Assembly: GCA_034440615.1 (NCBI GenBank)
Contig: JAOTOM010005182.1
Coordinates: 1,170,001 to 1,234,000 of the forward strand
Length of the DNA stretch: 64,000 bases
Source: Ashinkailepas kermadecensis
Lineage: Eukaryota; Arthropoda; Thecostraca; Neolepadidae
Direction of reading: 5' to 3'
Shown here: positions 2,009-51,100 of the stretch, in pieces
Layout: the number at the start of each line of letters is the position of its first letter
Position numbering within the stretch: the stretch's first letter is position 1
The notes under the pieces: generated by a model
The model's input: only the letters and a program-made list of their open reading frames with translations
The model's database searches: none
What the model was told of the DNA's origin: nothing
Made by a program: the position numbers and the translations under genes

Positions 2009-2062
2009 TGGGCGCTGTATGACCTATGCAGTCGATGCGCCCTTAAACTGCAATAACTAACT
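2009..2062 (+). repeat. Ultrashort retroposon copy (about 54 bp), old
   Basis: It aligns from its TGGGCGC start through GTCGATGCGCCC to the AATAACTAACT tail with the copies at 21987 and 44017. No clear target-site duplication was found, so it is probably old. Confidence 0.55.
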
Positions 2063-2140: not shown

Positions 2141-2310
2141 CATTTCGAGTGGTCCAGAGGTAAGATGCTCGTCTCACAATCGAAAGGTTGTGGGTTCGAG
2201 TCTCACCTGTCGCTACTCTTCGCCCGCGACCAATCGGCGTGAGAGATTGGCGACGCTACATGACTCAACGGTCGACGTGTCGTAAAACCAATAACCAACC
2301 AAGTCCGAAG
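2141..2310 (+). mobile_element. tRNA-derived SINE, copy 1
   Basis: The head carries an A-box match TGGTCCAGAGG and a B-box match GGTTCGAGTCT at tRNA-like spacing. The body contains CTGTCGCTACTCTTCGCCCG and ends with AATAACCAACCAA. The anticodon-loop region CTCACAA resembles tRNA-Val(CAC); that origin is a guess. It lies at the degraded 3' end of the first LINE. Confidence 0.85.
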
Positions 2311-5343: not shown

Positions 5344-5447
5344 TGGTTGGTTGTATTGATTTTGACGCCATTGGTGGCGAAGAGTAGCGACAGGTGAGAC
5401 TCGAACCCACACCTTCGATGTGGACGAGCTCTTACCCCTAGACCACA
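5344..5447 (-). mobile_element. tRNA-derived SINE, copy 2
   Basis: The reverse complement reads TAGGGGTAAGAGC, GGGTTCGAGTCTCACCTGTC and CTACTCTTCGCC, then a shortened tail CAACCAACCAA. It interrupts the pre-RT part of the first LINE. The flanks TCTACGTAT (5335-5343) and TCCACGTAT (5448-5456) match 8 of 9, a likely target-site duplication. Confidence 0.8.
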
Positions 5448-6637
5448 TCCACGTATAGAACGGGTAGTGGAATTGGCCGTAACCGGCCGAAAATACGTTT
5501 TATTTGCGACCACGCTTGCGACGATGGCACAGCGCGGTTCAACTTACTGACCTACGCCCTCTATGACACCTTTCCCTCTCTGAGTTGTACGGCACGCAGC
5601 TGCTCTCGCCTTCTGAAAAGCTAATAGGTTATTGGTTGTGCTATTGTGGTTGAGTTGCTTCAGAGCACGGCGCCGTTTTCTAATTGCTATCCGGCAATCT
5701 TCAGTCCACCACGGCGGGAGCGTACGTCGGGGAGAGCCAGTAGTACGAGGTATGCATTTGAAAGCGCACGATACAAGTATGGAGGTAAACCCCTCCGCAG
5801 GACTGGTGCACAGGAATAGTCGCATTCGTTAAAACATGCATGCAGCCGAGCAGTAAAAAACGACCATTCAACCTTTCTCAAATTCCACCGCTGTGGCCTG
5901 AACACCAGGGCTCCTTTCAGAAATTCGAGCCAAACGGGGAAATGGTCGCCATCTCGCGGATCGTCATCAACGAACCAATTCAAACACTGCTATCTCCGGG
6001 CTGGTGATGCTTAGGTCCAGCGCAGAAGTATTTCCCGATGGTTGTGATAAATGTATGTGTGCGCCAGTGTTAAGAATGCATAGAAACTCCTCTAGAACAA
6101 ATATTTCAAGAGGACATCAACGCACATTCATGTCGGCACATCTCCATACGGTGTGGTGGGCGTTGAAGTCACCCAGTAGTAAAATGGGTGGGGGAGCTCT
6201 GATGCAAGTCATCGGAGTGCTGAAGAAGGCAAAGCGGGGACAGGAGGGAGATATACTGAGCATGTGGTCATCGAGCGATCACCGAAGGAGACTTTTGCGG
6301 CCACCGCCTGGAGAGATTTACTTGCAGCAAGATGTTGGTCGGGACCACTTTTGTGCACCACCAGCATGACACTTCCATGCGCAACAGTATCATTGTCACG
6401 GTCCGTGCGAAAAAAGAAGTTGCTTAGATAAACGGGCCTTCTGATAAGAGTTCCGTCTCATGTATGCAAACAAGCACCGGGTTCCGGTTATGTAGTAAAA
6501 TCTGTAGCTCCTGGAGACTGATCCTGATGCATCTACAGTTTCATTGTAAGACAAATGATATGTTGACTAGGAGTGACTAGAAAGAGGGGAAGGACACGCT
6601 CTAAAAGTTTGCACGGTCGGGCGCAGAGTCGAGGCGA

Positions 6638-9200
6638 CTAACCGGCCCCGTCCCATGCGAGTGGATTCTCGGGCGAGAGCGTGGTGACGCTCCTCCAGCT
6701 GGCGGGGAGCCGGTCCAGGGTAGTGAACGTATTTTTTTTTTGGGTGGGGAGGGGCGTTGACACGGGGAGGAGGAGGAGGGGAGGACGCATTTTAGGGCTA
6801 TTCCCCACAGTGAGGATGACTTCCTTTTGACGGTGAGATTCATTTGATGTGCTCCATGTGCCTACCGTTGGTTTGATGATGTAGGTGTGGCTGGATTTGT
6901 GTTGTGTAGAGTTGTGTTGTGTCCGTGTGTTCTGGTGATGTTGGCGTATGTGGTTGTGTATGAGTGTTTTGCAACCGTCTGCCGAATATTCCCTGCTGAG
7001 GTAAGTGTTCAATGCTAAGGCTTGCTTTGCGAACCGATCTGCTTCTTCATTACCTAGGATGTTGGCGTGGCTCAGTATCCAGAGAAGTGAAAATTGTTTA
7101 CGTTATGGGCCACGATTTGTTAGATTCTGTCAGTGACTGGATGAGGACAGTCTTGGGCGTTGCCAATTGACTGAAGGACGGATTTTGAATCTAAGCAAAT
7201 TACTATGTAATGTAATATACAATGTATGTGATATGTATGTAATAATATATGTATATATGTATGTATGTATGTACTAATAATGTATGCAATAATTAGTATG
7301 TAATACTATGCAAATAGCTTCACGCCTCGTGATAATGGAGATAGTGGCCAAAATGGCCAGTGCTTCAGCGGAGTAGATGGAAAAGTTATCCGGCAGACGC
7401 TTGGAAAGCCTAAGGCCTGGTCCAGTGATGCGGGTGCCTACCTTGACCTCGTGTTTCAGCCCATCCGTGAATACGAGTGGTTTTTTTATGAGCGCTTAAT
7501 GATCACAATTTGTGGTCGAGGCGCCCTAAAACCCAACTAACTGAATACGACTGTTTTGTGATTGTTGTCATCGGCCAAGTTGCGGGAGGTGCGAATAATT
7601 TCCGCGTGGTAGCCGATTTCTTTTCCGAGGGTAAAGTCCAGGATTTCTACCTTTGGTTGACTGAGGGTCGAGAACGGCCTCAAGGGCGGTCGAGCTGCAA
7701 TGGTGGGCATTGTGAGGTTAAGATCTGAGAGAGCCGTGGCAATTTGAACACTATGTGGTGGAAGTTTGCGCCTAAATCGGATCTTGTCGTATCTGTCGTG
7801 CGTAAAACAGCGCTGTGCCGGATGATTTGTAAGGGATTTTATTATAATGTCGTAGCGGCACATCCGTTGTCCTCCTGAAGCGTAGGGGAGGCTTGTTTCA
7901 GTCTATTGGTAGACTGGATATCGGTGTGCTGTAGAGGGCTCCTGTGGCTGCTCTGATGGAGTTTTTTTTTATGGCTTCTATTTTTTGCACTGGTTTTGTA
8001 AAATGGTGGAAAAGAAAGATGTTGTATTTTAGGATGGGTCGTATGCATGATTTGTTGAGTCGTATTTGTGTTTCCCCGTCTCCGCCCCTGTTTGTTACTG
8101 CAATTGTGCGGAGTACGTTGATGCGTTTCGCGCATTTGTTCGAAATGGAAATGGTATGTATGTTGAAGCTAAATTGTTAATCCAAGTATGTTCTTAAGAA
8201 CTTGAAACTTTTTACCTGTTCGATGACCTTGTGGTCGATTTTAAGCAGTGTTATTGGTGTGGGGAGGAAACGACTATATGTTTCTGTGGCTGATTTTTCT
8301 GCTGACAGGGTGAAGCCCCACGTTTTGCACCACTTCGCGGTGTGGTCCATAGCTGTTTAAATGGTTTTCTCAGCTTTTAGGAAACATTTTGCTGTTGTCT
8401 AAATGGCTATGTCATCCGCGAAAATTGAATATTGAAGTGACGTGTCGGTGTGATCAGCAAGCATGTCGCTAATCATGACGAGGAAGAGGTTCGGTGAGAG
8501 CACGCTCCTCTGTACCAGGCCGTGGTCCTAGGGTGTGGCGATCGATGTGACACTGCCGCATCGGACCTCAAGGGTTCTGTCTCTGAGGAAGCTGAGAGTG
8601 AAGTGTGCCATGCGTCCACGTAGGCCTATCTTGTGGAGCTTGTGTGTTAGTGCGAACTTGTGTACTCGATCGAACGCGGCAGTGATGTCTAAGTAGGCAG
8701 CTATTGTTGCGCGTTTCATGCGTAGACCACGTTTGATGTGCACTAGCCTAATGAGATTGTCTGTTGTTGATTTTTGACGCTGGAAGCCGCACTGAAATTC
8801 TTCTAGCAGGACGTTGTGTTCTAGAAAGTGTCTCAATCGTGTGTTGACCATGCGCTCGACCAGCTTACTAGCGCAGCTAATAAGTGAGATAGACCTATAA
8901 CCTTTTGGGGTAGAACGATCTTTGTGCGGCTTTGGCAAATGAATAACTACACTTTTCCGCTCGGAGCCTGGAATGGTGTCGCTTAGGTGCATATCGTTAA
9001 TGGGCACTAGAAAGTGCGTTATATATTTTTTGCTAAGGTGTTTGGAAAACTGGTAATGAATGTCGTCCAGCCCAACCGACGTGTTATCACAATTGCTGAC
9101 TGCGCGATGAAATTTGTGCATAGTGAATGTTTGGTTGTAGTCTTATGTGCTGTAAGAGTTGACATTTTTTCAGCATATTTATGGGTAAAAAAGACTCAAT
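6638..9200 (-). mobile_element. I-clade LINE 2 (RT and RNase H), decayed and 5'-truncated
   Basis: On the minus strand, 9121-8528 gives an open RT segment with GLDDIHYQFSKHL, GYRSISLISCASKLVERMVN, EFQCGFQRQKSTTDNLI and YLDITAAFDRV. The frame continues, with stops, through LVQRSVLSPNLFLVMISDML and SIFADDIAI (about 8420) to an RNase H: VFTDGLK, YSAEALAILAT, CLDSKSVLQSIGNAQ and WILSHANILGNEEADRFAKQ (about 7060). A TATG-type microsatellite (7195-7315) splits the RNase H. The 5' half is missing, cut at the repeat starting at 9240. Confidence 0.87.
7195..7315. repeat. ATGT-rich microsatellite inside the LINE 2 RNase H
   Basis: Irregular TATGTA/ATGT units (for example GTATGTATGTATGTAC) lie between the RNase H blocks SAEALAILAT and CLDSKSVLQS. 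Confidence 0.8.
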
Positions 9201-20100: not shown

Positions 20101-22898
20101 GTGTACTGTGTACCGGTGCTGGTGGCGCTCTCCGTCGGCTGTGTGTACTGTGTGCCATGTACAGTGTACCGGTGCCGGTGCCGCTCTCCGTTAGCTCTGT
20201 GTACAGTGTATAGTGTACGGTGGGCCGCTCCCCGTCTTGTTACTGTGTGCCGTGTAGTTACGCGTTAGCCTTGCCCAAATAACCAACCAACAGTGTACCG
20301 GTGCTGGTGCCGCTCTCCGTTACCTCTGTGTACAGTGTACCGGTGCTGGTGCCGCTCCCCGTCGGCTGTGTGCACTGTGTACAGTCTACTGGTACTGGTA
20401 TCGCTCTCCGTTAGCTGTGTGTACAGTGTACTGTGTACAGTGTACGTGTACCGGTGCTGGTGGCGCTCCCCGTCAGCTGTGTATACCGTGTACAGTGTAC
20501 TGGTAGTGGTATCGCTCTCCGTCGGCTGTGTGTATTGTGTACAGTGTACCGGTGCTGGTGGCGCTCTCCCTCAGCTGTGTGTACTGTGTACAGTGTACCG
20601 GTGCTGGTGGCGCTCTCCGTCAGCTGTGTGTACCGTGTACAGTGTACAGTGTACCGGTGCTGGTGGCGCTCTCCCTCAGCTGTGTGTACTGTGTACAGTG
20701 CACAATGTACCGGTGCTGGTGGCGCTCTCCGTCAGCTGTGTGTACAGTGTACCGGTGCTGGTGGCGCTCTCCGTCAGCTGTGTGTACCGTGTACAGTGTA
20801 CTGGTACTGGTATCGCTCTCCGTCGGCTGTGTGTACTGTGTACAGTGTACCAGTGCTGGTGGCGCTCTCCCTCAGCTGTTTGTACTGTGTACAGTGTGCA
20901 ATGTGCCGGTGACAGTCGGCCGTCGGCAGCGCTTTCTGTTCAGCCTTGTCGTGCCGGTCCCACGCACAGCTGCGCTGACGCTTTACGTCGCGGGTGAGAA
21001 TGGCTCCGCAATGATTGTGAGTCATCCGACGGCGCCGGCAATGTGGGCTTGTTCAGCTGGTCGCTGTTGAGAGCAGCCGATGGCCGTGCCCCTCGCTGCA
21101 TACGCTGCATCCGCGGTCCTTTGATCCTGGCTGACAGCAAAGCAGGTTATGCAGGTTACCTGGCTGTGAAGGACGTCTAACTGCGCGCGACACTGACGCT
21201 CACCAAGGCTATTCCGTGCATTTATGATGCAATGAGCACGACCAGTGATCTGGCCGTAACCAGGCCGCCAGTTTTCCTTTATTTGCTTTCCCGATGAGCT
21301 TCATGTGAGTTGCGTGTTGCCTTGTCGTGTTTGCTGCAGTTCCGTGGTGCTTTGTCGTGTTTGCTGCAGTTGCGTGTTGCCTTGTCGTGTTTGCTGCAGT
21401 TCCGTGGTGCTTTGTCGTGTTTGCTGCAGTTGCGTGGTGCCTTGTCGTGTTTGCTGCAGTTACGTGGTGCCTGAACGTGTTTTTGATATTGGCGTGTTGT
21501 CCGGACGTGTTTACGATAGTTCCTTGTTTTGCGATAGTTGCGTTTTGTTCGGACGTGTTTACGATAGTTCCGTGTTGCCTGGACGTGTTTACGATAGTTA
21601 TGTGTTGTTCGGACGTGTTTACGATAGCTGCGTGCTGCCTGGACGTGTTTACGATAGTTCCGTGTTGCCGGGACGTGTTTACGATAGTGTGTTGTCCGGA
21701 CGTGTTTGTGACAGTTCCGTGTTGTCCGGACGTGTTTACAATAGTTTCGTGTTGTCTGAATGTGTTGGCTGCAGTTTCGTGTTGTCCAGACGTGTGCACT
21801 GCAGCTGCATGTTGTCTGAATGCGTTGGCTGCAGTTTCGTGTTGTCCGGACGTGTGCACTGCAGCTGCATGTTGTCTGAATGCGTTGGCTGCAGTTTCGT
21901 GTTGTCCGGACGTGTGCACTGCAGCTGCATGTTGCCTGAATGTGTTGGCTGCCGGTTGTCTGTGCACCTTGTCGACGCTTGACTGATGGGTGCAATATGA
22001 CCATAGTTGTCGACTCGCCCTAAAGCCCAAATAACTAACTAACTGACGCTTGACTGAGCGGCATACCCACGGGGAAGAATGCTTCAGTTGTGCGCAGCGG
22101 TAAGAGTTTTATTACAAAACATACAGAGAAATTACACCTTGTCCCCTTCAAAGTAATGCCCCCCCCCCCAAAAAAAAAAGAAGAAGAAAAGATGCATTCG
22201 CTTCTGCCACCCACGGAAGCACTTGGCAAAGTCCTCCTCCTCAAGGTCCCTCAGCTCCCTCGTCACAATGGCCTTGCTCTCTTCTACGGAGGCGAAATGA
22301 GTTCCTTTGAGCACAGTCTTCAGCCTGGGGAAGAGCTAGAAGTCGCACGGTGCGAGATCTGGGGAATAAGCAGATTTACGAGTGCTGTTCTGCCAGTGGT
22401 CGCATGCTACCTAATAGTGTAATATACGAAATTCCTTGTTCCGGTTGCTCAAAATCATGTTGGGGAAACCGGAAGGGGAATTCAGGCACGAATGAATGAG
22501 CACAAACGCGATGTGAGGTATCATAGGCAGTGCAGTGCTATTGTGGTCCATATCGACGAGTGAAAATGTACCAAAATGGGATGACGTAAGAGCTTTAGAG
22601 AAGAATATCAAAAAACGAACAAGAAAAGCATTAGAGGCAGCACATATATGCACACGCGACACGATCAATTCAAGAGTCGGTTCTGTTACCTGGGCAGGAC
22701 CTGCAGCGAGATTATCTATTGCGAAAAGCCGAACATGAATTGGCACTTGATTTTTACGGCAGAAAATGTGACTTGTTACCTGCTTGATATTGTCTGCAGT
22801 TGTGCGCTATGTTGTGTACCGATGAAGACCTATTGAGGTCGAAACGTTTACATTAAAGTATCTCCACATAATTTGTTTGTTTTCATCATCCATCCTCA

Positions 22899-22979
<81 letters not shown>

Positions 22980-25900
22980 TGATTTTGCCCAGTAGCCGTC
23001 CTGTATGTGAGCTGTTACTGTGTACCGTGTTTCAGAGGCCGTTGAGCGCAGCAAGTCGGTGGAAGATGTGATATCTTGCCTAAAGAAGGGCACCTTGCTT
23101 TGGAAAGTCAAGTCTCTGAGCAAGTGGTACCGACGGAAATATACATTGGATTTCGAGCACCTGAAGATCCACTACGATCCGTCGCACAAACCGGTCTGCG
23201 TGGAGAATAGCACCGTCCGTAAGTGCCGGGAAATGTGTTGCCGGTTAGTGGAGAACGCCACTGGTATTATTCGTCCTTCTGACAGCCATCTGATGCGCTG
23301 TGTGCTGCTTATCCCGGGCATTGGCCTACCTGGTATGTATTACCATTTGTTAACGAGTACCTTAACAGATGTTGTAAAGTTTACGCTCATCGTTTTTTTT
23401 CGATCCAGTTACATGCCAGGCTCCTCCTTATCTTGATATGACAGACGCACTGCCTCAATATTGTGTGCATGCACATTCGCTGTTATTGGAAAGGCCTTCA
23501 AATACATGCAAAATCACGCGACAAACCGAGTAACTTTCGGGTTTAGTCTGAAAGCATCAGGGGGTAGGGTTCATATCCTTCATCGCAGGCTTGAGGAAGA
23601 TCTCATAAGTGACCAGTTGTACTCAACTGATCTCAGTTGTATTGAACAGATACCCAAAGATCTCAACTGTGTACACTTTATAGTTGCTTCAGCTTGTTTT
23701 GTGTTGTGCTACTAAGCGCTGTGCATTTACTGTTCCAGTGGATATCAGTGATATCCACGATGTTCGGAAAGGATGGAAGACAGACATCTTCAACCGCATC
23801 GCCTCAAAAGTGGAGAAGCGCATCCTCAAAATGCCCAACTCTCCGCCACTGGTCGACGAGAGAAACTGCTTTTCGATCATCATCGGTAAGCAAACGCATT
23901 TGAAGCCGACGGTCTATGTGTCCACGTTATGCGCTGCTTGCGTGTTGGTTAGGACGTGAGCAGCCCCTACCTGGGTGTGTAGTCTACAAGCGCTCGCAAT
24001 GCGCGTGCCATGCGCGTCGGCCATTGATGACTCGGGATGTCCATCGAGCATGACAGCCTGAGTGCAGACTTGCAGTATGATCAGCTGACAGCCTGTGTTT
24101 GGCAGAAGCCGCTGCAGCGCGTCGGTTTAGTTGAACCAAGCGACCTCGCGCAGCTTGCACTTGCACTTGCACTCTGGTAATTTACGTCAGCTTCTCAGAT
24201 AGCGCGGTGATGCGCAGATTCCTATCGGCGGCGGTCGTGTTGTGCCTGACATTTGGAAACCATGTCCTCGTAGGGGTGTTGTTTCTCTGTCGGTATTGTT
24301 GGCTCTATCCAGTCAGCATGTCTACAACGCACTTGCTTAGCCGGGAGTATTGTCCGCACTGTTTTCAACGTACAATATTGTTAACAGCGAATTATAAATG
24401 AAGGTTTTTGCTAACAGATAAGGAGTTGAACTGTCTTTTTGGAGATGATAGTGTTTGGAAGCTACATTTCGAAAGCTCTTCACATATCACCAAGCCTAAA
24501 ATGAGTCGGAACATCACACATTTGGTTATATGTTTTGGCTTTCATTTATTTGATTTAAGCTAGCAAATGCAAATTACGCAATGGACTTGTAGACAAATAC
24601 TGGACTGTTACAGTGCTAACGATAGCCTTTTCCTTGCCTGGGTGTCGTCTTTATGGAACAATATAAATGTAGTTATGTTGCAATGGTTGATAGTATTCAA
24701 GCAAATAGTTGTGTCATTGCGTATGGTCACTACATCTGGTCTGGTTCCATTGAGAAGACTAGGATAGTTGAGAGTTTTCTAAGACATGTGTCCTGCCCTT
24801 TTAAATGGCATACTCCGATCATGTTTATGGGTACCACCACTGTAAGGGTGGGGATACCTCGTCATTAATCCCTAGCGAGCAGCGGAGATGGTACGGCATT
24901 GGTAGCACTCGAGTAACAGTTGGTAGGGCAATCATTAGTCGTGCTCGATCACTACCACACATATACAAAACGCCACCTGTTGTGCACAAACGGCAGCTTC
25001 AGGAAAGGATGTTGAGGCAATTCGACATACGACTGATTCTTCTGCCCTAGAAATTGCCGCCTGACGATCCGGCTTGCGTAATATAGAGATGAGGTATACG
25101 GTACATTGCGTAATATAGAGATGAGGTATACGGTACATTGCGTAATATAGAGATGAGGTATACGGTACATTGCGTAATATAGAGATGAGGTATACGGTAC
25201 ATTGCGTAATATAGAGATGAGGTATACGGTACATTGCGTAATATAGAGATGAGGTATACGGTACATTGCGTAATATAGAGATGAGGTATACGGTACATTG
25301 CGTAATATAGAGATGAGGTATACGGTACATTGCGTAATATAGAGATGAGGTATACGGTACATTGCGTAATATAGAGATGAGGTATACGGTACATTGCGTA
25401 ATATAGAGATGAGGTATACGGTACATTGCGTAATATAGAGATGAGGTATACGGTACATTGCGTAATATAGAGATGAGGTATACGGTACATTGCGTAATAT
25501 AGAGATGAGGTATACGGTACATTGCGTAATATAGAGATGAGGTATACGGTACATTGCGTAATATAGAGATGAGGTATACGGTACATTGCGTAATATAGAG
25601 ATGAGGTATACGGTACATTGCGTAATATAGAGATGAGGTATACGGTACATTGCGTAATATAGAGATGAGGTATACGGTACATTGCGTAATATAGAGATGA
25701 GGTATACGGTACATTGCGTAATATAGAGATGAGGTATACGGTACATTGCGTAATATAGAGATGAGGTATACGGTACATTGCGTAATATAGAGATGAGGTA
25801 TACGGTACATTCAAGCTTAGTCTTCACTCGTGGTCGGTGGCGAATCCAGAACGGCAACGTTTAGACGTTTGCTAAGTTACATCTCCAAGAATGAACGTAA

Positions 25901-28900
25901 AATGCGGGAGATTCTGACTGCTTTGTACGCATTCAATGTTTTACGCGCATTTTCACATGATGTGTACAAGATTTTGTCCGTCTGACTACGCTGCTGGTCA
26001 CTCCACATATGGTACTCCTGACGGACCTGGCACTCCACTCCACGTATAAAGTCATAAAGTCATAACGTGTTAAGGCTTAATAAGAGCCACAGGGGCCCAT
26101 CTGGGTTAAGCAAATCTAGAAAAGGGACTAGAAATGTACATACTCTCACCCAAATCAATCCCTTATCTCATTCTGGTCGAAGCGCCCTAAAGCCCAAATA
26201 ACTAACTAACTAATCCCTTATCTCAAGTTCCTAGGGAGCTATATATCCTAGCCTATCTAGCACCATTCGCTTGCTATTGCATAACACACTCAACAATTAC
26301 AAACTCCTCCCATCGTACCCATTGTGCTACCATAGACAATCTCATCAGTATCACATCCAAGGAAGGTGCTGAATCCATTGCTAGGTACACCCTATATAAA
26401 GTTATAAAGCATTTAGACTTAATAAGAAACCCAAAGGCCCATCCAGTTAAGTCTGTAAATGGAAGTTACCATAAGCCTGGTGAAAAGACAAACCCCAACC
26501 ATCCCACATTCTGAAGAAACCAGTCCTCCAATATCCCACACACCTGTCAATGCCTATCTACCCTAGCTATCCAGCCCTATTCCACTGATTTCGCTTAACA
26601 CATGTGGATTGAATGCCTTATCAATAATTTTCCAACTGCATCCAGTTGCCTGCTTAAAGGGGTCTGTGCCATGTACACTTACTAAACATAAATCTCACCC
26701 CCTCCATCACAAATTAGAACTCAAAAACAAGATTTTCCTGTCTAAAAAAATTGTCCACCCTACTTTTAAATACATTCAATGAGGAACTCCCCACAACATT
26801 AGCAGGCAGCCCATTCCACTGATCAACAACCATTTGACTGAAGACCTGTTGTCGCTTAACTGTCCTACACCTCAACTTGTCTAACCTGAATTGATACCCC
26901 TATGTGAAACTCTAAACTGAAGAGCACCATTCAAATTGACCTGATCTAGTCCTTTAACAATTTTGTACATTTCAATCATGTCCCCCCTTAATCTCGTATA
27001 CTTGAGTAAGTACATATCCAATGCCACAAGCCTTTCTCCATATTCTAAGTTACCTATTCCACTGATGAGTCTAGTTGCTTTGCGCTGCACCCTTTCTAAC
27101 ATGTCTATATCTTTTTCTAGGTAGTGGCTCCATGCTTGTACAGAATATTCCAAGTGGGGTCGCACATATGCTAAGTATAATTTTTTTTCATGACTTCCTT
27201 GCTCTTATTACACTTCTATTAATGAGTCCCAGCATTCGGAGTGCCCTGTTCCTAGCTGAGCTACATTGTTTTTCTGCTTTAAGGTCTCTTGAAACCAACA
27301 CACCTAAGTCCCTTTCCTCTTCAATAACATCCAGTTCCCTCCCTCCCATTGTATATCTTAAAGTCTCACCTCCAGACCCCAGATGCATAACCTTACACTT
27401 GTCATAGTTGAAAGACATCTGCCATCGAGCAGCCCACTTTATTAGGTCCTCCAAGTCTAGTTGAGTGTTTCTAGATTGATCACAACTGTTTGCCACTCCT
27501 ACCAGCTTGATGTCATCAGCAAATTTGAACACCATTCCTCAGCCCTACCTCAGTGTTATTCACAAAGATGATGAAGAGAAGTGGCCCTAGAACAGAGCCC
27601 TGTGGTACTCCACTCAGAACATCCTTCCAATCAGATTTACATCCATTTAACATTACCCTTTGTTTCCTTCCCCTCAACCATGCTTCAATCCAACCTATAA
27701 CTTTTCCAACAATCCCATGTTGCTGTAGTTGATGAATTAGCCTCCCATGTGGAACTTTATCAAAAGCTTTGCTAAAGTCCAAGTACACAGCATCCATCCT
27801 GCTTTGATTATCTACTTATTTAGTAACATACTCCATGAACTCCAAAAGGTTAGTTAAACAAGACCTTCGAGATCGAAATCCATGTTGAGTATCCCTTAAA
27901 AGATTGTGCCTATCAAGATGAATCTGAACATTCTGTTTAACCAGATTGTCTAGTACCTTGCAAACTATTGAGGTCAAACTGGCTGGCCCGTAGTTCCCTA
28001 CACACTTCATACTTCCCCTTTTGAAAATTGGCACTACATTTGGATTTCTCCAATCTTCAGGCACTTCAGAATATTCCATAGACCGCCTGAAAATTATACC
28101 TAGGGGAACTGCTAAAGCTTAGCACACTCTAATAAGACACTAGCATATATATCATCTGGTCCAGAAGCTTTATTAGGTTTTATATTCTGCAACTGCTTTT
28201 CTACAGCTTCTGTAGTTATTGTAAGATACTCCAACATATCGCATGTCATGGCATACGATTCAGTTGTTTCTATTCTACCAAAATTATCTTTAGTAAAGAC
28301 TGATGAGAATTGCTTGCTTAGGGATTCCACAATATCACACTCATCAACCACTAATTCCCCATCTACCTCCAGTGATCCTACACTACACTTTTTAGCCTTA
28401 AATTTGTAGGAACTAAAGAATCTCTTAGCATTACCTGCTGAACATTCCCGAGCTACTTTGATTTCAGCCAGTCTTTTAGATGCCCTAACACACCTCCTAA
28501 CTTTATTTCTAGCTATTTTATAAGATTTGAGGTTTACCTCAGAGCTAGCATATTTTAGTTTCTTGAATGCCTGTTTCTTTGACTCCAGTAAATGCTTTAC
28601 TTCCCTGGTCAGCCATGAAGGGTGCTTAACCATGGTTAATCTAATTTGCCTATTGGGAATGAACCTATCCTGACCTTGAACCTTGAAATGTTTATATTTT
28701 ATCATTCTCCACATTTCATAAGCATCTTAGCCCTTCAATAAGTCTGCCTAATGAATTTCATTCAGGAAGATCCTGAACTCATTGTAATTCCCTTTAGCAA
28801 AATTTGGAATCAATGTCTTATTGGTTCCTACACTTCCAACATACAATGAGAAGCGTATAATGTTGTGATCACTATTACCCAAGGTCTCTCCTATGTTCAC

Positions 28901-31900
28901 ATTTTGTACAAAATTTTCCTCATCAGTAAGCACAAGATCTAATATTTCATTTTCCCTTGTAGGTTCATGTATCATTTGAAAGAAGAAATTTTCCTCCAAA
29001 ACAATCCGTGAAACTTCTTCCTGATTTGTTTAGACCTATAGTTTTGCTTCCCAATCCTGTTATGTTGAAATCCCCCAACAAAACAGTTCTCTCCTGCACT
29101 CTCCTACTTATCTCTTCCTGCATCAACCTGTCCATGTTTTCCTTCTGGTCTGGAGGTCTATAGAATGCCCCAATCCTAAATTGTGTTCCATTCTTCAGAA
29201 TGATATCTAACCACAAGGATTCTACTCCTTCATTATGTACACTATCCTCTATGGAATGACATTTCATTACTTGTCTGACATACAAGAGTATACCTCCTCC
29301 TATCCTTGCCTTTCTTTGATGGTATGGTACTCCTGACTGACCCGGCACTCCACCCCACGTATGGTACTCCTGACTGACCCGGAACTCCACTCCACGTATG
29401 GTACTTCGGACTGACCTGACCCTCCACTCCATGTATTATACTCGTGACTACCCGGCACTCCACTCCACGTATGGTACCCCTCACTCACCCTGCACTCCAC
29501 TCCACGTATGGTACTTCGGACTGACCTGGCCCTCCACTCCATATATGGTACTCCTGACTGTCCCGGCACTCCACTCCACGTATGATACTCCTGACTAACC
29601 CGGCACTCCACTCCACGTATGGTACCCCTCACTCACCTTGCACTCCACTCCACGTATGGTACTCCTGACTAACCCGGCACTCCACTCCACATATGGTACT
29701 CCTGAATGACCCGGCACTCCACTCCACGTATGGTACTCCTGACCGACCCAGCCCTCCACTCCACATATGGTACTCCTGACTGACCCGGCACTCCACTCCA
29801 CGTATGGTACTCCTGACTGACCTGACCCTCCACTCCATGTATGATACTCCTGACTAACCCGGCACTCCACTCCACGTATGGTACCCATCACTCACCCTGC
29901 AATCCACTCCGCGTATGGTACTCTGACTGACTTGGCCCTCCACTCCATGTATGGTACTCCTGACTGTCCCGGCGCTCCACGTATGATACTCCTCACTCAC
30001 CCTGCACTCCACTCCACGCATGCAGACATTTCGCACCCATATCAGCCACCCCAGCCGTGTACCTGAGGGATTTCATCGGGAGGTTTCTACACCGGGAGGC
30101 GAAATGCACAACGTGTGTCCGCGATTTTCTTTCCCTGTACTATTGCATGGCTCATATATGACAAAAGTTTGTTCCTAATGAACAAAATAATGACATGACC
30201 TGATATTCTAACGACAAACTGAAGCTCACTTGTTGTCGGGCGCTTGAATCCTCCAATGTTGTGTGAGAGATGTTCTCCAAGCTCCATATCGATATTGCAT
30301 GCCACAAAAATGGTGTGAGGTTTCAGTTAGACTGTATGTTCTCCAGACATGAATGGTCGATGGACAGCACAAACATGCCTATCGTTTCGTGGTTTATAAC
30401 GCTGACCTTGAAGCTAAGTGTGCATTTTGCACGTGTAGTTCGTGGACTGGATCTCTGGAAATAATCATGTATGACCGTCGGAGTAAGGCATGAAGTTCCC
30501 AAGCAGGATATTTAAAACTATTTCCCGTATCGGGATTCCTACGTTCAGCACTGCCTTTCCTATAAATTTTGGAAACATATACATTGATCGGATAGACCTC
30601 GTGACGGCGGCTGCTTCTCGCTATCCTGTGAGACAATCTGTCGGCAATGCTCTTAGGGAGGGTGAGAAATTGTCCTCCAGTGATTCTTGGATATCATTAA
30701 TTGGGCCGGACAAATGAGCATGATGCGGACATTCATCTTAACGTATTTACCAATAATTTTGATACATGGAGAATTGAGCTTGTGTGTGTATGAGGGGTGT
30801 TGTTTACCTTTTCACCAGCAGTGTGGCGTCTGGTTTCCTGTGTCCTGCGTCAACACGACCACCAACCACAATAACCAACTGTCTCCTGACGTGTGTGGTG
30901 ATCGATGTCCTGTCTGTCCTCACTTGTGTGGACCATAGACCAGTGTTCCGCCTGTGGTCACGTGTGTAGTCCCCACTGTACTGTTTATGGTCACGTGTAT
31001 AGTCGCCAGTGTCCTGTCTATGGTCACGTGTGTGATGGTTGGACGGTCGGAGGTGAGACTCGTTGGCTGCAGCGTTGTGGTGACCAGTGTCCTGTCCATG
31101 GTCACGTGTGTGATGGTTGGATGGTCGGAGGGAGTGTTGGCTGCGGCGTTGTGGTGACCAGTGTCCTGTCTATGGTCACGTGTGTGATGGTTGGATGGTC
31201 GGAGGGAGTGTTGGCTGCGGCGTTGTGGTGACCAGTGTCCTGTCTATGGTCACGTGTGTGGTGTGGTGCGGTTACTTCAGGTTGTGGTGTTTTGGTAACT
31301 GTGTGATGGTCGGACGGTGAAGGTAAGACCCGTGTTGGCTGCAGCGTTGTGGTGCCGTACGTTCGTTACCCCGACTCGTTGTGCGGAGAGCTTGGGCCTG
31401 GTGTTTGACTAATGCAGGTGGCCGACTGCTGTCCCAGCACGTGCCGGCGCGGTGTCTGCCGCTCCGCTGTGCCGGCGTCCACGTGACCCGAGACAGTTGC
31501 TGACTGTGCGACATCGCAGCATCGTTGCACGTGTTCAGTTTTGGGTCCTATCGGCCATCGGCGACTGAGGAGCAGCCAATGTCTGGAGTGGTTTCCATCA
31601 ACGTAGTTAAAATTAGTAAAGGCAGTGGAGGCACGCGAGCCAACTTCAGGGTTCAAGTATATGCCTTTGGCCACCGTTCGACACGTCCCTGAAGGGCACA
31701 TCATGATCGTATGACTGGGTAGTTTTGCGCTGCTCCACGCTAAGTACCTTCGGTGACGTTTTGCCGTTTATATGATGCAAACACAACCCCTGCTTGTGCT
31801 ATGCGACAAGGCCTCGTTTGCACAGCTGTGCTTACCAAGATTCTCTGACGAGTTGTTTTGATATCGGATAGTATGGCTATGGTGTGCTTTAGATTGACAC

Positions 31901-33124: not shown

Positions 33125-36100
33125 ACTTTCGGAATAGTTAAAAAATAAGAAAATTTTAACATTTCAAAAGGTTAATTTTTTATAAATAAATATTTGAGAT
33201 ATTTGTACATATTTCATTAGCATGCCATAGCCTGAATGCTATGGTATATTTGGTAAGTTTGTGCGTATTGCATGAGCATGACATGGTCCGACCGCTATGG
33301 TATATTTGGTCAAATGTTTGGTAACACGTAAGTGCTAACAAAATAATTCAAGAAGGAAGAAGTGCCCGGAAGCTTGGTGAAGGTCTTGATTCGGCTTTTG
33401 TCAATGTTCTGAGCCATGCTTGCATATGTAGTAGGCTGTTTCGGCAGTGCTGATATGTCCTATGTACAGTTCACTCGTTAGTTATTTTTCCTTAAGTAAT
33501 GTACGATCTGGTGAACATTAGCGTCCGCACGACTCGCACTTCTTCCCCTGTGGAGACGATATCAACCAGCGAGAGACGACATTATGCAAAGTATGTTATA
33601 AACATAGTATAATCCTACTGTGATATATATATCCCATGTTGAGAGCACGTATAACTTGGTAGCTGTTTTGTTTTGTTTTGTTTTTGTGATGCCTCTTTGG
33701 TGGCTCCATGACTATCTGGGTGTAGCCATTTGCAGCCATGATGGTCACTCCGCGGTTGCCGACGGTTCTCCCGTACCACTCACTGGTCAATAAGTACATT
33801 ACTGTTGGTTGCATTGGAGAGGTGTGTTGTTGCTGGGCTTGCGTTCTGACGTCTTGTTGACCGCTCTTCGCTGCCGCCGCCACGGGAGCTCAGCCTTGAT
33901 GCGCCTCTGCTACCCATGCTGCCAGCTGTCCCGCGCACCGTCCTCTGCTGTGGCCCATTCTGCGCGGCCGTCCAGCGTACCTCTTTTTTCTGCGCCCCGT
34001 CCCGCTCGTCCCTTGGCCCATTCTGCGCGGCCGTCCAGCGTACCGTCCTCTTTTGCATTCTGGGCCGTCCAGCGTACCGTCCTCTGTTTTGGCCCATTCT
34101 GCGCCGCCGTCCCGCGTACTGTCCTCTGCTGTGGCCCATGCTATGCTACGCCGCCGTCCTTTGTTGTGGAACCATGACCAAGGCGTTGGACAATATAGGT
34201 TATGTGGTTGTATGTCGGGTAATGCAGGCTGTATGCAGATGACGGGTGACATTGCTGTTGGAGATGCAAGTCGTACGGTGGTGTCTCTGATAATGCTTAG
34301 CAGCAATGCAGTAGTGGCAATGCTTTATGTACATCAGCGGCTCAGCTTCATGGGCGGGACGGAATTTGGCGATGCGTGAAACAGCCTGTGGTGTGGTGGG
34401 GCGAGCGCAGTCGTGCGGACTAGCGTGCGATGTTGCCGGTCACGCCTGTTGGGTTGTGTGGCGTTAGTTGGTGTGGTATTGGTGGTGTGTGGTGTAGTTG
34501 GTTCGGTTGTGTGGTGTTAGTTGGTATGTTGTCGGTGGTGTGTAGTGTAGTTGCTACGGTTGTGTGATGTTAGTTGGTATGGTGTTGGTGGTGTGTAGTG
34601 TAGTTGGTGCGGTTGTGTGATGTTAGTCGGTATGGTATTGGTGGTATGTGGTGTAGTTGGTCCCGTTGTGTGGTGTTAGTTGGTATGGTGTTGGTGGTGT
34701 GTGGTGTAGTTGGTTCCGTTGTGTGGTGTTAGTTAGTATGGTGTTGGTGGTATGTGGTGTAGTTGGTACGGTTGTGTGGTGTTAGTTGGTATGGTGTGTG
34801 GTGTAGTTGGTTCCGTTGTGTGGTGTTAGTTGGTATGTTGTCGGTGGTGTGTAGTGTGGTGTGTACGGTTGTGTGATGCTAGTTGATAAGGTGTTGGTGG
34901 TATGTAGTGTAATTGTTCGGTTACGTGGTGATAGTTCGTACGGTGTAGGTCGTCTGTGGTGTAGTTGGTTCGGTTGTGTGGTGCTAGTTGGTGTTGTGTT
35001 GGTGGTGTGTGGTGTAGTTGGTTCGGTTGTGTGGTGCTAGTTGGTGGTGTGTGGTGTAGTTGATGCGGTTGTGTGATGTTAGTTGGTATGGTGTTGGTGG
35101 TATGTGGTGTAGTTGGTTCGGTTGTGTGGTGCTAGTTGGTGTTGTGTTGGTGGTGTGTGGTGTAGTTGGTTCGGTTGTGTGGTGCTAGTTGGTGTTGTGT
35201 TGGTGGTGTGTGGTGTAGTTGATGCGGTTGTGTGATGTAGTTGGTATGGTGTTGGTGGTATGTGGTGTAGTTGGTTCGGTTGTGTGGTGTAGTTTGTGTT
35301 GTGTTGGTGGTGTGTAGTGTAGTTGGTTCGGTTGTGTGGCACTAGTTGGTATGGTGTAGGTAGTATGTGGGCGTGCGATCTGAGTGTGTTTTGATTGTCT
35401 TTTGAGGTGAGGTTTGGTGGAGGGTCGCGTGAGCTGTACTGCGCTGTGTTGCCAGGATCGTTCAGCCGTGGTGGCTCTCCGGCCCAGTGTGGCGGCGTTC
35501 TGGTCCGCTGTAGCAGGTAGCTGTGTTGGGGCCCACCGTGGTGGCTCTCCGGCCCAGTGTGGCGGCGTTCTGGTCCGCTGTAGCTGTGTTGGGTCGGCCG
35601 TGGTGGTGTTTTGTCATTTGTGACTGTTGTGGTCCACTGTAGCGGTGTTCTATTCCATTATGGCGGTATTATGATCCACTGTGGCGGTGTTGTGGTCCAC
35701 ATTGACGGTGTTGTGATCCACTGTGGCGGTGTTGTGGTCCACATTGACGGTGTTGTGATCCACTGTGGCGGTGTTGTGGTCCACATTGGCGGTGTTGTGA
35801 TCTGCTGCGTTGTGGTCTACTATGGCGGTGTTGTGGTCCACGGTGGCAGTAGTATGAACCACTGTGGTGATGTTGTGGTCCACAGTGGCCTTGGTATGGA
35901 CCACTGTGGCGGTGTACTGGCCAAGGGGACGAGTAGTCTAGGGGTAAGTTGCCTGTCTCACAATCGAAATATTGTGGATTCGAGTCTCACCTGTCGCTAC
36001 TCTTCGCCCGCGCCCAATCGGCGGAGAGGTTGGCAACGCTACATGACTCAACGGTCGACCTGTCGTAAAACCAATAGCCACCACGGCGGTGTACTGGCCA

Positions 36101-42100: not shown

Positions 42101-45100
42101 TAGGCAGTGTGCGTCAAGATGTCAAGATGTACAGTCCCATTACTGCACATGCATACAGACAAACGTACACCTGTCTGGACAAACAAAGCAGAGGACCACA
42201 TAAGTCCACGCCTGTGACCAAAAAGGGCGGCGCCTCACTTGCTCTAATGACCAGCAGAGGCGCTACTGGTGCGTTCAGCGCTGCTGCGTCTTACCTTTGA
42301 CAAGCCAAACGGATCCTTTTCACCATTTTGGCTATCCTTCTGGCTCCGATGATGCAGTGCTCACACCGCAGCGGTGTCGGAAGTGTGTCTATACCAGCGT
42401 GTTTCAACAACTCGTGTTGAAACCTGATAGTGATCTAAGCGAGATGGACCTTCGGAATCAAAATAAAACATTTGTCCCCTGGAGGAAACTCCGTTTTGCA
42501 AGTTTACTACGTACTCGCATAGTCCTTGCATGTCCATGGACAGGAACGGACACAGTAAGATAATCCGATAGTTTTTGTGTTGGGAGTCTTGCCGGTCCTC
42601 AACACCTGACACTCCTTTGGATTCGCCTGGGACCGCGACATTTTGAACAAACAAACCTTGGCTTCAGTAAGCTCCTCGTAACTCAAAATCGCAGACTACG
42701 TCCACTCCGTCCTGTAGTACAAGACTTCGGCCTGCGAATAAATTTAAACGCAAGTCCTACTACACGGATAGCCTTGGTCAATGAGGAAAAACGTTCTTCA
42801 CGAAGTACTGGTTCTAGATGCGACTCAGTGGGAACAGATAATAGCTGACTCATCGATGATGGAGTCCTCTTCTCCCTCCTCCAATAGGACTGCCACTGAA
42901 GGATTATCTGCACTACCCTCACCGGACTCCTGCAACCAGTTAAGTCCTACAAATTAGAAGTTGTTAAGTACCAGTTAAGTCCTACAAACCCTACAGTTAA
43001 GCGCAACCAGTTAAGTCCTACAAACCAGAATTCAGGTCAGCTGAATTATCCTGCCCGGGGCAGTGAGCCCAGAGTGACGGATCTGTCTGACTGAATCTCA
43101 GGTGCACTGTTCCCAACGAACTGCTTCCATCTGGACGAGTCATCTCTGATCAAGCACAGCACCATGGTAAAATCCATCCAGCTCTTATAAGATAAGAAGT
43201 TTTAGGAGGAAGTTGCAAAGCTCTACGCACAAAGCTGAGCAGGCGGGCAGCTAGCAAGCTACCCAACAGTTCCAGCCTGGGCCAGCTGACACGCTTCGGG
43301 TGGGTGGGGGGCAAATCTGGCACGTGACATCGCTAAGTGAGTCGCCGCAGTGTCATTCCTCAGTGTCTGGAGCAGGTACGCTGCAGCCCGAAAGCTTGCT
43401 TCAGATGCATCACCAAAGGCATCCATTTCGATGAGTGACGCATCCGTCCACCCTGCATCACAGTAGCTGCAGAGCACACGGACCTGTTTCAAACGTTCCA
43501 TCCCATTCAGCCATCTCAAGAACCTGTTCTGAATGTTCTATGGAACGAGTTTATCCCAATCAAGATCCAAACGTTAGATTTGAAAGAGGCGCTTCACAGT
43601 TAAGATGAAGAGTGCTAGCAAGCCCGGAAGATAAAACAGTCTTGCTATGAACCCGAGTATGACTCGCTTCGTCACTGTCACATCGGGAGGAACTTGGACA
43701 CCCTCAAATGCAAGCACATCCTCATTAGGGTCCCACTCCACCCCAACACCTTGTGGCACTCCAGGCCACCTTGACCTGACAGATTATGAGCCTTGTCGAG
43801 TGTCACATGACTGTTCAAATAGTTTTCGTCAGTGTCATGCCAGCCTTGCTCAGCACATATCTGGCTTCAGAAAACAGAGCATACTTTTTCTCCTCATAGT
43901 CGGCTTTAGTAAGGAGATCTTCCACAAACATGTTCTCTTCTAGTAACGTTCTCAGATGGTGACGTATGGGTGACGCAGCCAGCACAAATTGGCTGCTTTT
44001 GACGCCAAACGTCACATGGGTGCTGTTTAGCCAACGTAGTCGATACGCCCCTAAACCCAAATAACCAGCCAATGCCAAACGTCACACCCTTGAACTTCAT
44101 AGTTCTCACCCGACCGTGGTGGTGTCACAATCATCTGTGTACATCTTGATCCTGAGCACGAAGCTGGATCATCAGGAACGCCTTCCGAATAGCAGCAGAC
44201 ACAGCGAACCTCCGGCGTCTAAAGCGAAGTAACACCTGACTGGGATCAGGAAGTAGAGATGGACCAGTCTCTAAACAATCATTGAGACTGACCAGACTAC
44301 GGCTCCGAGCAGTCGCGCCAAAGACAGGTCGCACGTGTATCGTTGAGCTGGACTCGCGCGCCACTGGCCTGTGGGGACATGGAGCACCGGACCGTCACTG
44401 TTCACTTCACTCTCTGGCACCTCTGAGATGATAACAGCCTCCTCAGGTTCCTCCAGGACTCTTATACTCAGACTTCAATTTGGGGTCTTTCTCAAGCTTC
44501 CTATTCGGAGTATCCAACACAATTTCTGCAACTTTCTGCTTCCAAGGAAGCTCCACTTCATATATGCCAACCTTGAAGCAGACAGAAGACTCAAAGTTTT
44601 TCAGCACATAATTGGTCTCCAACTCATCATCCTCGGGATTAATATCCACAGCATCCAGATCCAAGAATTGTCCGAGCCTGGATAGTGTACATCAGCCATT
44701 ACCAACAACTCATGACTGACGCTACTTTCTCTGAGTGAAGTCCAGATGGGCCTGAAAAAGATACACCCAAGCACAGTCTGCTAGGCCGCAGGGACATCAT
44801 CATAGCGCAGGCAGCCAGTGCCCATCAGCTGTCAGTAGTTGCCCAACCCAAGCAAAATGTCGATGGTCAACGACTTTCCATCCTTTGTATGGTCAGCCAG
44901 CTCTAGGTTCCCAAAGAAAGCCAACAGACTTGTTGGAAGGAAGGGCGGGTCAGTGGAGAGCAGATAACAGACACCTCAGCAGCCTCAACATCTACAGCAA
45001 TAGGCTCAGACACACAAGCGCCACACATTTCAGGACGATAAATGCTTCTTAGGCTTTCTCCACTTTCACTCCCATCAAACGCAGAGTAGCTGATCTTCAT

Positions 45101-48100: not shown

Positions 48101-51100
48101 CACAGTACACTGCGCAGATGTCAGACCACGCTCTGTTGAGGTCAGGTATAGATGGTCTGGGTCATGCGGCACTGGCTTGAGGTCATGCACACTTGACCAA
48201 GGTCAGGTAGCACAATGATCCGAGGTCAGAAAGTACATGGGTGAGATCAGATGACTCACCGGGCTGGGATCAGGTAGCACGGGACCAAGGTCAGGTGACA
48301 CAGTGGTCTGGGGTCAGGTAGCACGGGACCAAGGTCAGGTGACATTGGTCTGGGGTCAGGTAGCACGGGACCAAGGTCAGGTGACATTGGGTCAAGATCA
48401 GGTGATGCAGTGGTCTTGTGTCAGGCACCACGGGACTAAGGTCAGGTAATCTCTGGTCGAAGCGCCCTGAAGCCCAAATAACTAACTAAGGTCAGGTAAT
48501 ACTGAACCACGATCAGGTGACGCAGTGATCTGGGGTCAGGTAGGGCCGGCCTGGTGTGGGGCAGCGCTGGAATGGGTCAGGTGGTGCTGCACTGAAGGTA
48601 GATTGAGACAGGGTCAATGTTAGGTGAGGTCATACCACGTCCTTAACCGAAGTTGTGAGGTTCGACGTGACTACGTTAGTGAGTATGTGATTTGGATAAT
48701 ATGCGGCTGCGTTGCAAACATTGTCGCCTCGCCCCTCGGTCAGGTACCTGATGGGTAACCAGCTAACGGACTAGTCCACTGCCTGTGTATGCGAGATGAC
48801 CTGACCGTCCTCACCCTACGGCCTGACTACCTAATGGGTAACCCAGCTGACTGTCCTCGCCATACGGCCAGGTATCTGATGGGTAACAAGCTGACTGGCC
48901 TCGCCCTTCTGCCAGGTACCTGATGGGTAACCAGCTGACCGGCGTGTCCAGCGTGGAGGCGTACATCATCGCTTTGCAGAAGGGTTGCAGATGTGTGGAG
49001 CGTGAGTTGTTAGCTGTCCGATGGGTCGTCTAGCTCGGTAGTCATCGGTGTGCTGGCGCTTCGAGGCAGCTTTGTTCGATTAACTCAGCTGTCCCCAGTT
49101 GTTCGGTTTAAGTGTGGCGAGCTTAAGGCGGAAATGCTGAATATTTTGACACGGTTGAAACAATCCATGCGTGCCAGGTGTTTTTTTTTATTGAGTTTTA
49201 ATTACCAACGTGTGACGGCATAATGAAAGGCAAGGTTCAGGTAAAATGCGAATACATTCACATGTAGTACCAATCGGTATTGATCACGGGGCGGAGATAC
49301 GGGTAAAGTCGTGTAAAATGTAATGTAGTAATTAATGAGACTGATTGGACTTAAATGTAATACGTTCATGTTGAACGCCTGCCCGTATGTCTGTGTTCGC
49401 CCATGGTGCGTGTAGCCTGTTAGAATAACACCCATCAATTCGGGTTAAATGTCAAGAGAAATGATGGTCAATGTTAAAATAGTTTATAATTGAGTTGTCA
49501 AAGTTTAGTACTTTTAAGTTTTCAATCAGCATGAGTTTGTGAATATCTCAGCAAAGTATCGGTACTCGCTCTGGAATCTGAGGATAGTGTATCTAAGTTC
49601 CTATAAAGCCATAAACACAGCAGTAGATGGGGCTGGGGGTGCCGGCGTATCAGTGCATTCAAGATCGCCCACTAACTTGACCTGCTCCTCGTCTCGACAG
49701 TGGACTGCTGGGATGGTGAGGATGGCGAGCCTATCATCTACCACGGGTACACGCTCACCTCCAAGATCCGCTTCCGTGACGTCATCAGTGACGCCATCAA
49801 GCCGTACGCGTTCCAGTACTCTGAATACCCGCTGATCCTCAGCATTGAGAACCACTGCTCGGTGCGTCAGCAGGAGAAGATGGCTCAGCACCTGAAGAGC
49901 ATCCTCGGCGGTAGGTAACATGCTCAGTACTGTTACATGACATACGGGGCCCGCTCTGGACGTTGATAGGCGGTGTTTATTTCGCCGGATAGGCAAAGCT
50001 AGCTTTAGCCATTTAGATAATTAACATTTATATATGGTCTAGTATCAGGGGAAGTAGTGCAAATTAGAAAGCATATCACGGCTGTCAGTATCACGGTTGT
50101 CAGTATCACGTTTCCGACGCATGGAGGTAGCAAATCCGCGTGTAAATATTATTAGAAAAAAGATTGCTGCACAATCAGTATATTTTCGCTTTGTTTTCAT
50201 TTAATACCCACTGTATGCAACACTGTGTGCCAAGTACCCCCTTCTGGATCTCTTGGGTTTCTGGAGACCTCCAAGCCTCTACTAGGGGTTTCGTCTCCGG
50301 CTTGTGGGCCTCCTCTCATTTCCTAGGGGGCTTATTGTGCCATCCTGGGAATCTCTTTAGCCGGCTTAGCGATTTGTGGAAGTAGTTTCCCCGGATTGCA
50401 GGGGAAAGCCATATGTTAGCCACTCTGCCTCAGGACAGTCCCTCACGCGTCCCCGGCTGCACTGTGTGCCTTGTTGATATCGGAAAGTTTAGCTGTAATA
50501 CTTAGGGGATTATCGGGCAAGACGTCTCCAAAGGGATAACCGCAGCTGTGATGACTGTCAGGCATAGTAATGAGTGACATTTTGCAACGAGGGACCAGTA
50601 GCAAAAATATGTCAAAAATATAATATATGTGATTAGAAAAGCTGAATGATTGGCTACGACACCAGTAGTGCAATTTTTTTTCAAGAACATAATTTTGCGT
50701 GCTTCATTATCGCAAACAAAAACGGCTCAAATCTCCCATGTTGAGCCTACGTGATTGTATCAGTAAGAAAACAGTAACGGTCCCCGACTCGCACGTACGT
50801 TTGTGGCTGAGGAATGTGAACCATTTAAGTCACGTGACCCAGCCGTCATAACGCTACCGTATTATAGAAGTACCGCGATTCATATTTGACGCCCGTAAAG
50901 ACTGTAGCACTTGGCGGTTTATTTGTTAACATCTTAAAGTGCAATTTGGTTCATATCTTCAACTTAATCCCCAAAACTGGAGCATACAATTTTGTTTTGT
51001 TCTTTTCAATCTAGGGTTGATACTGGTAGACAATAGCAATGCCAAAGTTATTCCACATTGTATGATGTTGGGCGTCAGACGCAATGGTAATGTGGACATC

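Follow-up and report, generated by a model that had tools for sequence, protein, structure and literature searches.

Within the window, a 64,000-nucleotide stretch of Ashinkailepas kermadecensis DNA, lie inserts of a few dozen base pairs that are bracketed by duplications of their target sites, and they raise the question of how retroposons so short come to have defined 5' ends. A sequence-only reading of the window had proposed that they form a distinct retroposon family, that they have two defined 5' ends and are not products of random truncation, and that their tail resembles the 3' end of a tRNA-derived SINE; it had also named a partner LINE with the same 3' end as something to look for. 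In zebrafish L2 LINEs the protein is known to recognise a 3' stem-loop (PMC4176376), and we consider here whether the hairpin carried by the inserts accounts for where they begin.

Results

Short inserts in the window

Exact duplications bracket four inserts, as had been reported, but their lengths are 13, 14, 13 and 16 bp rather than 13 to 15 bp, and the fourth insert measures 34 bp (48451-48484) (Table 1). The weakest of the four scores 26 (P = 0.0024 against 5,000 random non-tandem places in the window). When the 50,786 unmasked window bases are shuffled by dinucleotide, exact pairs of at least 13 bp average 0.18, a lenient null because the real window has other such pairs, mostly diverged tandem repeats; 45 exact pairs of at least 11 bp are listed in the window. 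The insert at 48451 lies within a diverged minisatellite, and the automatic duplication search favoured a minisatellite match there, so that its duplication carries less weight than those of the other inserts. Minisatellites abound in the window as a whole (87 rows of tandem repeats); among those at 25074-25811 and 58765-60498 are a perfect array of 23 copies of a 32-bp unit and an array of about 41 copies of a 43-bp unit.

By blastn and alignment, the related places in the window are the five of the sequence-only reading, the insert at 7489 and the 3' ends of two tRNA-SINEs. The decayed duplication at 7489 scores 24 (P = 0.0038 against random window places). The extra copy claimed at 2009 does carry the hairpin and tail; a search for a duplication by alignment gave a longest exact match of 5 bp, and its start is therefore unusable as evidence. 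Duplications are exact at four of the six copies, decayed at one and absent at one, and all of the window copies found lie on the + strand. The tail of the insert at 44017 had been misread: it is AACCAGCCAAT, not AACTAACT.

A covariance model was built from eight window sequences (2009, 7489, 21987, 26171, 44017, 48451 and the two SINE ends). Its only strong matches in the window (E of 3e-9 or better) are these same eight, including the insert at 21987, to which the model (R1) gives 71.1 bits although that insert is itself a model sequence; the matches thus offer no independent support. No further strong copy was found in the window by the model, the next match being one to the tail only at 20272 (E 0.018). 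This match (GCCCAAATAACCAACCA, 20272-20289) is inside a minisatellite region, had no duplication that we could find and is perhaps a decayed copy.

Table 1. Hairpin-bearing inserts, their target-site duplications and tRNA-SINE 3' ends in the window
Feature	Position	Strand	Evidence or remark
Decayed 5' duplication copy (TGAATACGAGTGGTTTTTTTA)	7468..7488	+	TGAATACGAGTGGTTT/TGAATACGACTGTTTT, score 24; last 5 bases by eye
Hairpin-only retroposon, begins TGAGCGC	7489..7541	+	blastn to 26171 and others
Same hairpin and tail, without duplication; GTTA directly 5' as in LINE copies	2009..2062	+	
5' copy of target-site duplication GACGCTTGACTGA (13 bp)	21974..21986	+	exact repeat
Hairpin-only retroposon, 58 bp; 5' end TGGGTGC = hairpin foot; tail AACTAACTAACT	21987..22044	+	abutting duplication
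3' copy, duplication of 21987 insert	22045..22057	+	exact repeat
5' copy of target-site duplication AATCCCTTATCTCA (14 bp)	26157..26170	+	exact repeat
Half-hairpin retroposon, 41 bp; 5' end in apical loop (TTCTGGTCGAAG)	26171..26211	+	blastn/alignment and duplication
3' copy, duplication of 26171 insert	26212..26225	+	exact repeat
5' copy of target-site duplication GCCAAACGTCACA (13 bp)	44004..44016	+	exact repeat
Hairpin-only retroposon, 57 bp, diverged, 71% identity to 21987	44017..44073	+	blastn/alignment and duplication
3' copy, duplication of 44017 insert	44074..44086	+	exact repeat
5' copy of target-site duplication ACTAAGGTCAGGTAAT (16 bp), within diverged minisatellite	48435..48450	+	exact repeat
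Half-hairpin retroposon, 34 bp; 5' end in apical loop	48451..48484	+	blastn/alignment and duplication
3' copy, duplication of 48451 insert	48485..48500	+	exact repeat
tRNA-SINE 3' hairpin and tail	2250..2301	+	SINE about 2146-2303, tRNA-like head 2148-2208
Second tRNA-SINE copy, 3' hairpin and tail	36033..36083	+	flanks GGCGGTGTACTGGCCA at 35908-35923 and 36085-36100

Predicted hairpin

The elements follow, with variants, the plan TGGGYGC-nnn-ATGACC-loop-GTCGA-n-GCGCCC-TAAA-CCCAAAT-(AACT)n, in which GGGYGC would pair with GCGCCC and TGAC with GTCG. The copies at 2009 and 7489 are strongly predicted to take the hairpin (-14.7 and -16.3 kcal/mol, z -3.4 for the latter), the fold is weak at 21987 (z -0.6), and the insert at 44017 and the SINE tail at 36010-36083 are predicted to fold otherwise. 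Two outer pairs differ at both positions between the SINE tail and the short elements, yet pairing is kept in each.

In the window alignment 90% of the cells are paired, against 30-52% when the pairing is slid; for 54 distinct copies the figures are 93.9% against 33-46%, in an alignment that leans to the model. In neither alignment do doubly changed pairs exceed shuffles in number (the observed value is reached in 189 and 63 of 500, respectively), though the number of such cells does. RNAalifold returned no pairs from a gappy 64-row alignment and, from a 21-row alignment, the outer helix only, with one compensatory change. We regard the outer helix of the predicted structure as fairly well supported and the inner helix as less so.

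Start points across the genome

The home assembly comprises 907,663,968 bases in 4,689 contigs, and one 18-base tail occurs in it in 3,242 exact copies over 908 Mb, balanced between strands (1,629 forward, 1,613 reverse); the reversed control contains none. We took 328 bases around 60 of 100 listed tail places, one per contig and in order, on contigs of 10 to 57 kb, and removed 15 as duplicates by their shared flanks, which left 45 independent insertions. The genome counts rest on exact matches, and the 60-copy sample represents one exact tail. Duplications were sought without regard to position over about 260 upstream bases, with a score of at least 18 and the 3' copy beside the tail; by swapped flanks, the null rate for the score alone is 0.051 per copy, falling to 0.004 for a score of at least 22.

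Thirty-one of the 45 copies pass, and 29 are usable once L029 (a tandem array) and L074 (its tail matching a neighbouring tail) are excluded. Measured back from the tail core, the 5' end is at 32-37 bases in 20 cases, at 39 and 42 in two, at 29 in one and at 10-21 in six, with none of the 29 at 43-260; at a score of at least 22, 24 copies remain, 17 with starts at 32-37 and five at 14-21. The binomial P that a given 6 of 250 bases take 20 of 29 starts is 3e-26. The foot of the hairpin is position 36, and the zone at 10-21 is the apical loop or just past it; some starts at 32-35 reflect microhomology between the target and GGG (L049, L054). Among the 14 copies with no usable duplication, four continue into a LINE (L024, L038, L045, L070), L062 falls just below the threshold at position 36, and nine have no resolved start.

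The claim that truncation is not random is therefore borne out by the uneven spread of starts, and that of two defined 5' ends needs qualifying: the TGGGTGC foot is sharp (20/29), and the TCTGGTCGA class is real but is a zone (6/29). Tabulated over the samples from the home genome, starts are not evenly spread and duplications are not mostly absent. A tail of (AACT)n or (AACC)n adjoins the duplication, and the duplications vary in sequence and are usually about 12-20 bp long. A fixed 3' end with a simple tail, set beside target-site duplications of variable sequence, is what a retroposon has, the 5' end being less variable than usual, and the evidence that the inserts arose by target-primed reverse transcription is good.

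A sample independent of the tail

Twenty stretches of 10 kb (200 kb) were chosen independently of the tail and, with the window, make up a 264-kb sample. They gave 26 model matches, 24 of which entered the duplication search with the eight window sequences; L020:8956 and L016:9975, weak or cut matches, were left out. The 32 sequences comprise 11 tRNA-SINEs of two types and 21 others, three of which represent one old insertion, so that 19 remain. Nine of these start at the foot, at most two bases from it or through microhomology (21987, 44017, 7489, L003:103, the reverse-strand matches of L007, L011, L017 and L001, and the L010 group), and five start in the loop (26171, 48451, L005:627, L015 reverse and L016:7707); the rest are one at the inner helix (L016:1789), two LINE ends (L004 and, weaker, L016:5740) and two to which no class was assigned (2009 and L011:9419). 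Several of these starts were read by eye, those of L005, 48451 and L007 (reverse) because the automatic search had settled on a tandem repeat or gave a sub-threshold result, and the duplication of L007 (reverse) is below threshold. The same two start classes are present as in the tail sample. The 10 short inserts resolved in the 200 kb extrapolate, roughly, to tens of thousands in 908 Mb.

The insertion at L016:1789-1839, which begins at the inner helix (GACC) and has a 13-bp exact duplication, may represent a third start. A long parent common to L001, L010 and L015 was considered and rejected: these are copies of another repeat family, with CCTAACCTAACCTAAGCTG, and all three copies seen contain one old hairpin-only insertion (duplication CAAGGAAAGTGTT/CAAGAAAAGTGTT in L010), which indicates that the family was amplified after the insertion.

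A LINE-like parent

The partner that had been sought was found as a LINE-like ORF upstream of the same hairpin. In L024, L038, L045, L070 and L004 the hairpin is preceded by a protein end like DFLSDVSFSVIYTPH and a stop, and then by a 3' UTR (about 100 nt in L045) that ends GTTA-TGGGCGC; L016 holds a decayed form of the parent with weak similarity (E 0.18). A 39-residue protein query gave 2,594 first-look candidates, and among the 150 scored the open frames run from 32 to 1,240 aa and eight are identical over the 39 residues. In 6 of 13 places listed on contigs C253-C999 (C265, C520, C728, C755, C847, C858), GTTATGGGCGCNAAATGACC lies 104-106 nt past the end of the ORF, a placement that points to a parent that is probably LINE-like. 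Its clade may be I/R1-like (RNase H-bearing), to judge by a C-terminal motif at L016:5245-5610, where Pfam shows nothing but a weak match to an unrelated domain (DUF3090, E 0.042). The best 150 of 28,617 first-look candidates for PF00078 include frames of up to 1,253 aa; on the eight contigs that these 150 matches have in common with the 39-residue places, no reverse transcriptase was seen by eye close upstream of such a place. LINE-like remnants on the - strand of the window (3880-6369, 6641-9142 and 26881-29435) have reverse transcriptase matches, with one weak RNase H and one weak endonuclease match. A C2-domain match, together with the LINE and SINE content, suggests that the DNA is animal.

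The sequence of the short elements is contained in the 3' end of the LINE, as in truncated copies; the varied 5' ends of such copies are not seen, 20 of 29 falling within six bases. Of the 45 independent copies in the tail sample, 20 have their start at the foot and four continue into the LINE. The hairpin sequence TGGGCGCNAAATGACC occurs 4,725 times, 1,139 of them (24%) after GTTA, and a second hairpin, a 33-mer with 373 exact copies, has TTA directly 5' in 23 of 100 listed. About three quarters of the exact hairpins in these two subfamilies thus lack the parent's adjoining bases. All six LINE ends that were read have GTTA, and because these bases diverge, the counts fall somewhat short of the true long share. 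Like long shares in two different hairpins suit a by-product of the LINE.

Comparison with the tRNA-SINE

The 3' end of the tRNA-SINE has the same predicted fold as the short elements, with compensating changes, and a similar tail. The resemblance noted earlier is thus one of a common hairpin fold and does not reflect truncation of the SINE. Over the window Rfam has a single match above its cutoff, to the SINE head at 2148-2208, and neither Rfam nor ARAGORN found a tRNA-like or pol III head at the short elements, which lack the promoter of a SINE but, as SINEs do with a partner LINE, have a 3' hairpin and tail that also follow a LINE-like ORF. Exact SINE hairpins number 6,310 genome-wide. In the 264-kb sample none of the 10 main-type SINE hairpins (one of them in L017) starts at the foot; nine keep the SINE body, and the other begins within the loop and has no supported duplication. 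Set against the 9 of 19 foot starts among short elements, this gives a Fisher P of 0.011, post hoc. One truncated SINE (L001:7603) starts elsewhere and has a 15 bp duplication, and L007:8823-8879 is a second tRNA-SINE type with a different head, a similar 3' hairpin and tail and an 11-bp duplication.

Discussion

The 5' ends of the short inserts coincide with the foot or the loop of the hairpin, from which it follows that the hairpin sets the 5' end. We put at about even the chance that the inserts were made by target priming and copy nothing but the recognition hairpin and tail at the 3' end of the LINE, with 5' ends fixed in this way. The hairpin is a putative recognition signal of the enzyme, by analogy with the stringent LINEs described in PMC4176376. 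On this account the LINE protein would bind the hairpin of its own RNA, and a cut in the exposed RNA, either 5' of that hairpin or within the loop, would be where the reverse transcriptase runs off after priming at the target nick, so that the outcome would be a complete but tiny insertion. Cutting of the RNA is preferred because it explains both the foot and the loop ends. Several results sit uneasily with this account. General binding and cutting would predict foot starts at SINE hairpins of the same kind, where none was seen, and half-hairpin products require that the RNA be cut after the hairpin is bound; the lack of an excess of doubly changed pairs over shuffles, the empty RNAalifold result on 64 rows, the other fold predicted for 44017 and the nine of 45 copies with no resolved start also count against it. 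The contrast with the SINE argues against any version that acts on every hairpin alike. More tentatively, a LINE hairpin of about 36 nt with its tail may be a sufficient and abundantly used template, the foot and loop cuts yielding minimal RNAs that enter the genome more frequently than long LINE copies do.

The same LINE origin could be combined with a stop made by the enzyme or the cDNA, either through abortive synthesis after the bound hairpin is consumed or through fold-back of a self-complementary cDNA at the foot. A sharp end at the foot follows directly from either version, and the hairpin is self-complementary; the loop class (6/29) is left unexplained, however, as no structure lies ahead once the 3' arm has been copied, and the stop is absent in SINE copies (0/10). 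We consider this explanation unlikely. An independent family of mini-retroposons, in which a 57-nt hairpin RNA from its own source loci is mobilised in trans like a SINE, would suit the second hairpin of 33 bases in its 373 exact copies and the excess of foot starts over copies running into the LINE. Against it, both counted subfamilies have the LINE-adjoining bases at a near-equal share (24% and 23%, the latter among 100 listed), and searches with Rfam gave the short elements no tRNA-like head; it is distinctly improbable. The retroposon family first proposed thus survives as a set of insertions with duplications, but these are probably products of LINE activity rather than a self-standing family.

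Ordinary random 5' truncation of the LINE, with common starts by chance, has in its favour that LINE copies are commonly 5'-truncated (PMC3747384) and that the C-terminal open frames among scored matches vary in length as truncation would give, but it is rejected on the start points, 20 of 29 lying within six bases and none at 43-260, and is very improbable. Truncation of the tRNA-SINE itself, which the same fold and similar tail might suggest, is rejected on start points and hairpin letters and deserves scarcely any credence, since the letters match the LINE copies and not the SINE (CGACGC/GTGTCG) and SINE-type hairpins keep their body in nine of 10 sample copies.

Recognition of LINE 3' stem-loops (PMC4176376), the sharing of tails between LINEs and SINEs (PMC3747384) and short LINE truncations are already known. 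Stringent-type LINEs (UnaL2, ZfL2-1 and ZfL2-2) likewise have a 3' stem-loop with tail repeats, in their case recognised by the protein (PMC4176376); the hairpin sequence here differs, and stem-loop-only insertions are not mentioned for them in the excerpts of PMC4176376. The tRNA-SINE here, which ends in the LINE's hairpin fold and a similar tail, follows the principle of SINE/LINE pairs (PMC3747384), whereas the short elements have no promoter head. The SINEs Bov-A2, RTESINE1 and MAR4 are also nonautonomous and composed of LINE parts that include the 3' end, but as presented in PMC3747384 they keep the LINE 5' end, and the elements here, at about 34-60 bp, have no part of the LINE beyond its 3' hairpin and tail. 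With 5'-truncated LINE copies the inserts have in common the retained 3' end, the target-site duplications and the tail repeats; typical truncation occurs at various positions and leaves 100-1,000 bp (PMC3747384), in contrast to the one foot position and one loop zone seen here. No earlier report of abundant hairpin-only retroposons was found in the open-access papers searched, and three pattern scans gave no match in a set of viral contigs that may omit records near this genome.

Copies of about 34-60 bp would probably escape the usual repeat annotation. Should the hairpin and tail indeed be a sufficient and abundantly used template, the inserts would rank with the smallest retroposons that have defined ends, and would leave a direct footprint of how the template is recognised. 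They bear on the way in which LINE enzymes select a template and on the shortness of most copies, and a genome in which insertions by the thousand end at the putative recognition hairpin is a natural experiment: each insert records where use of the template ended, and the starts at the hairpin foot may show the part of the RNA that is held by the copying enzyme.
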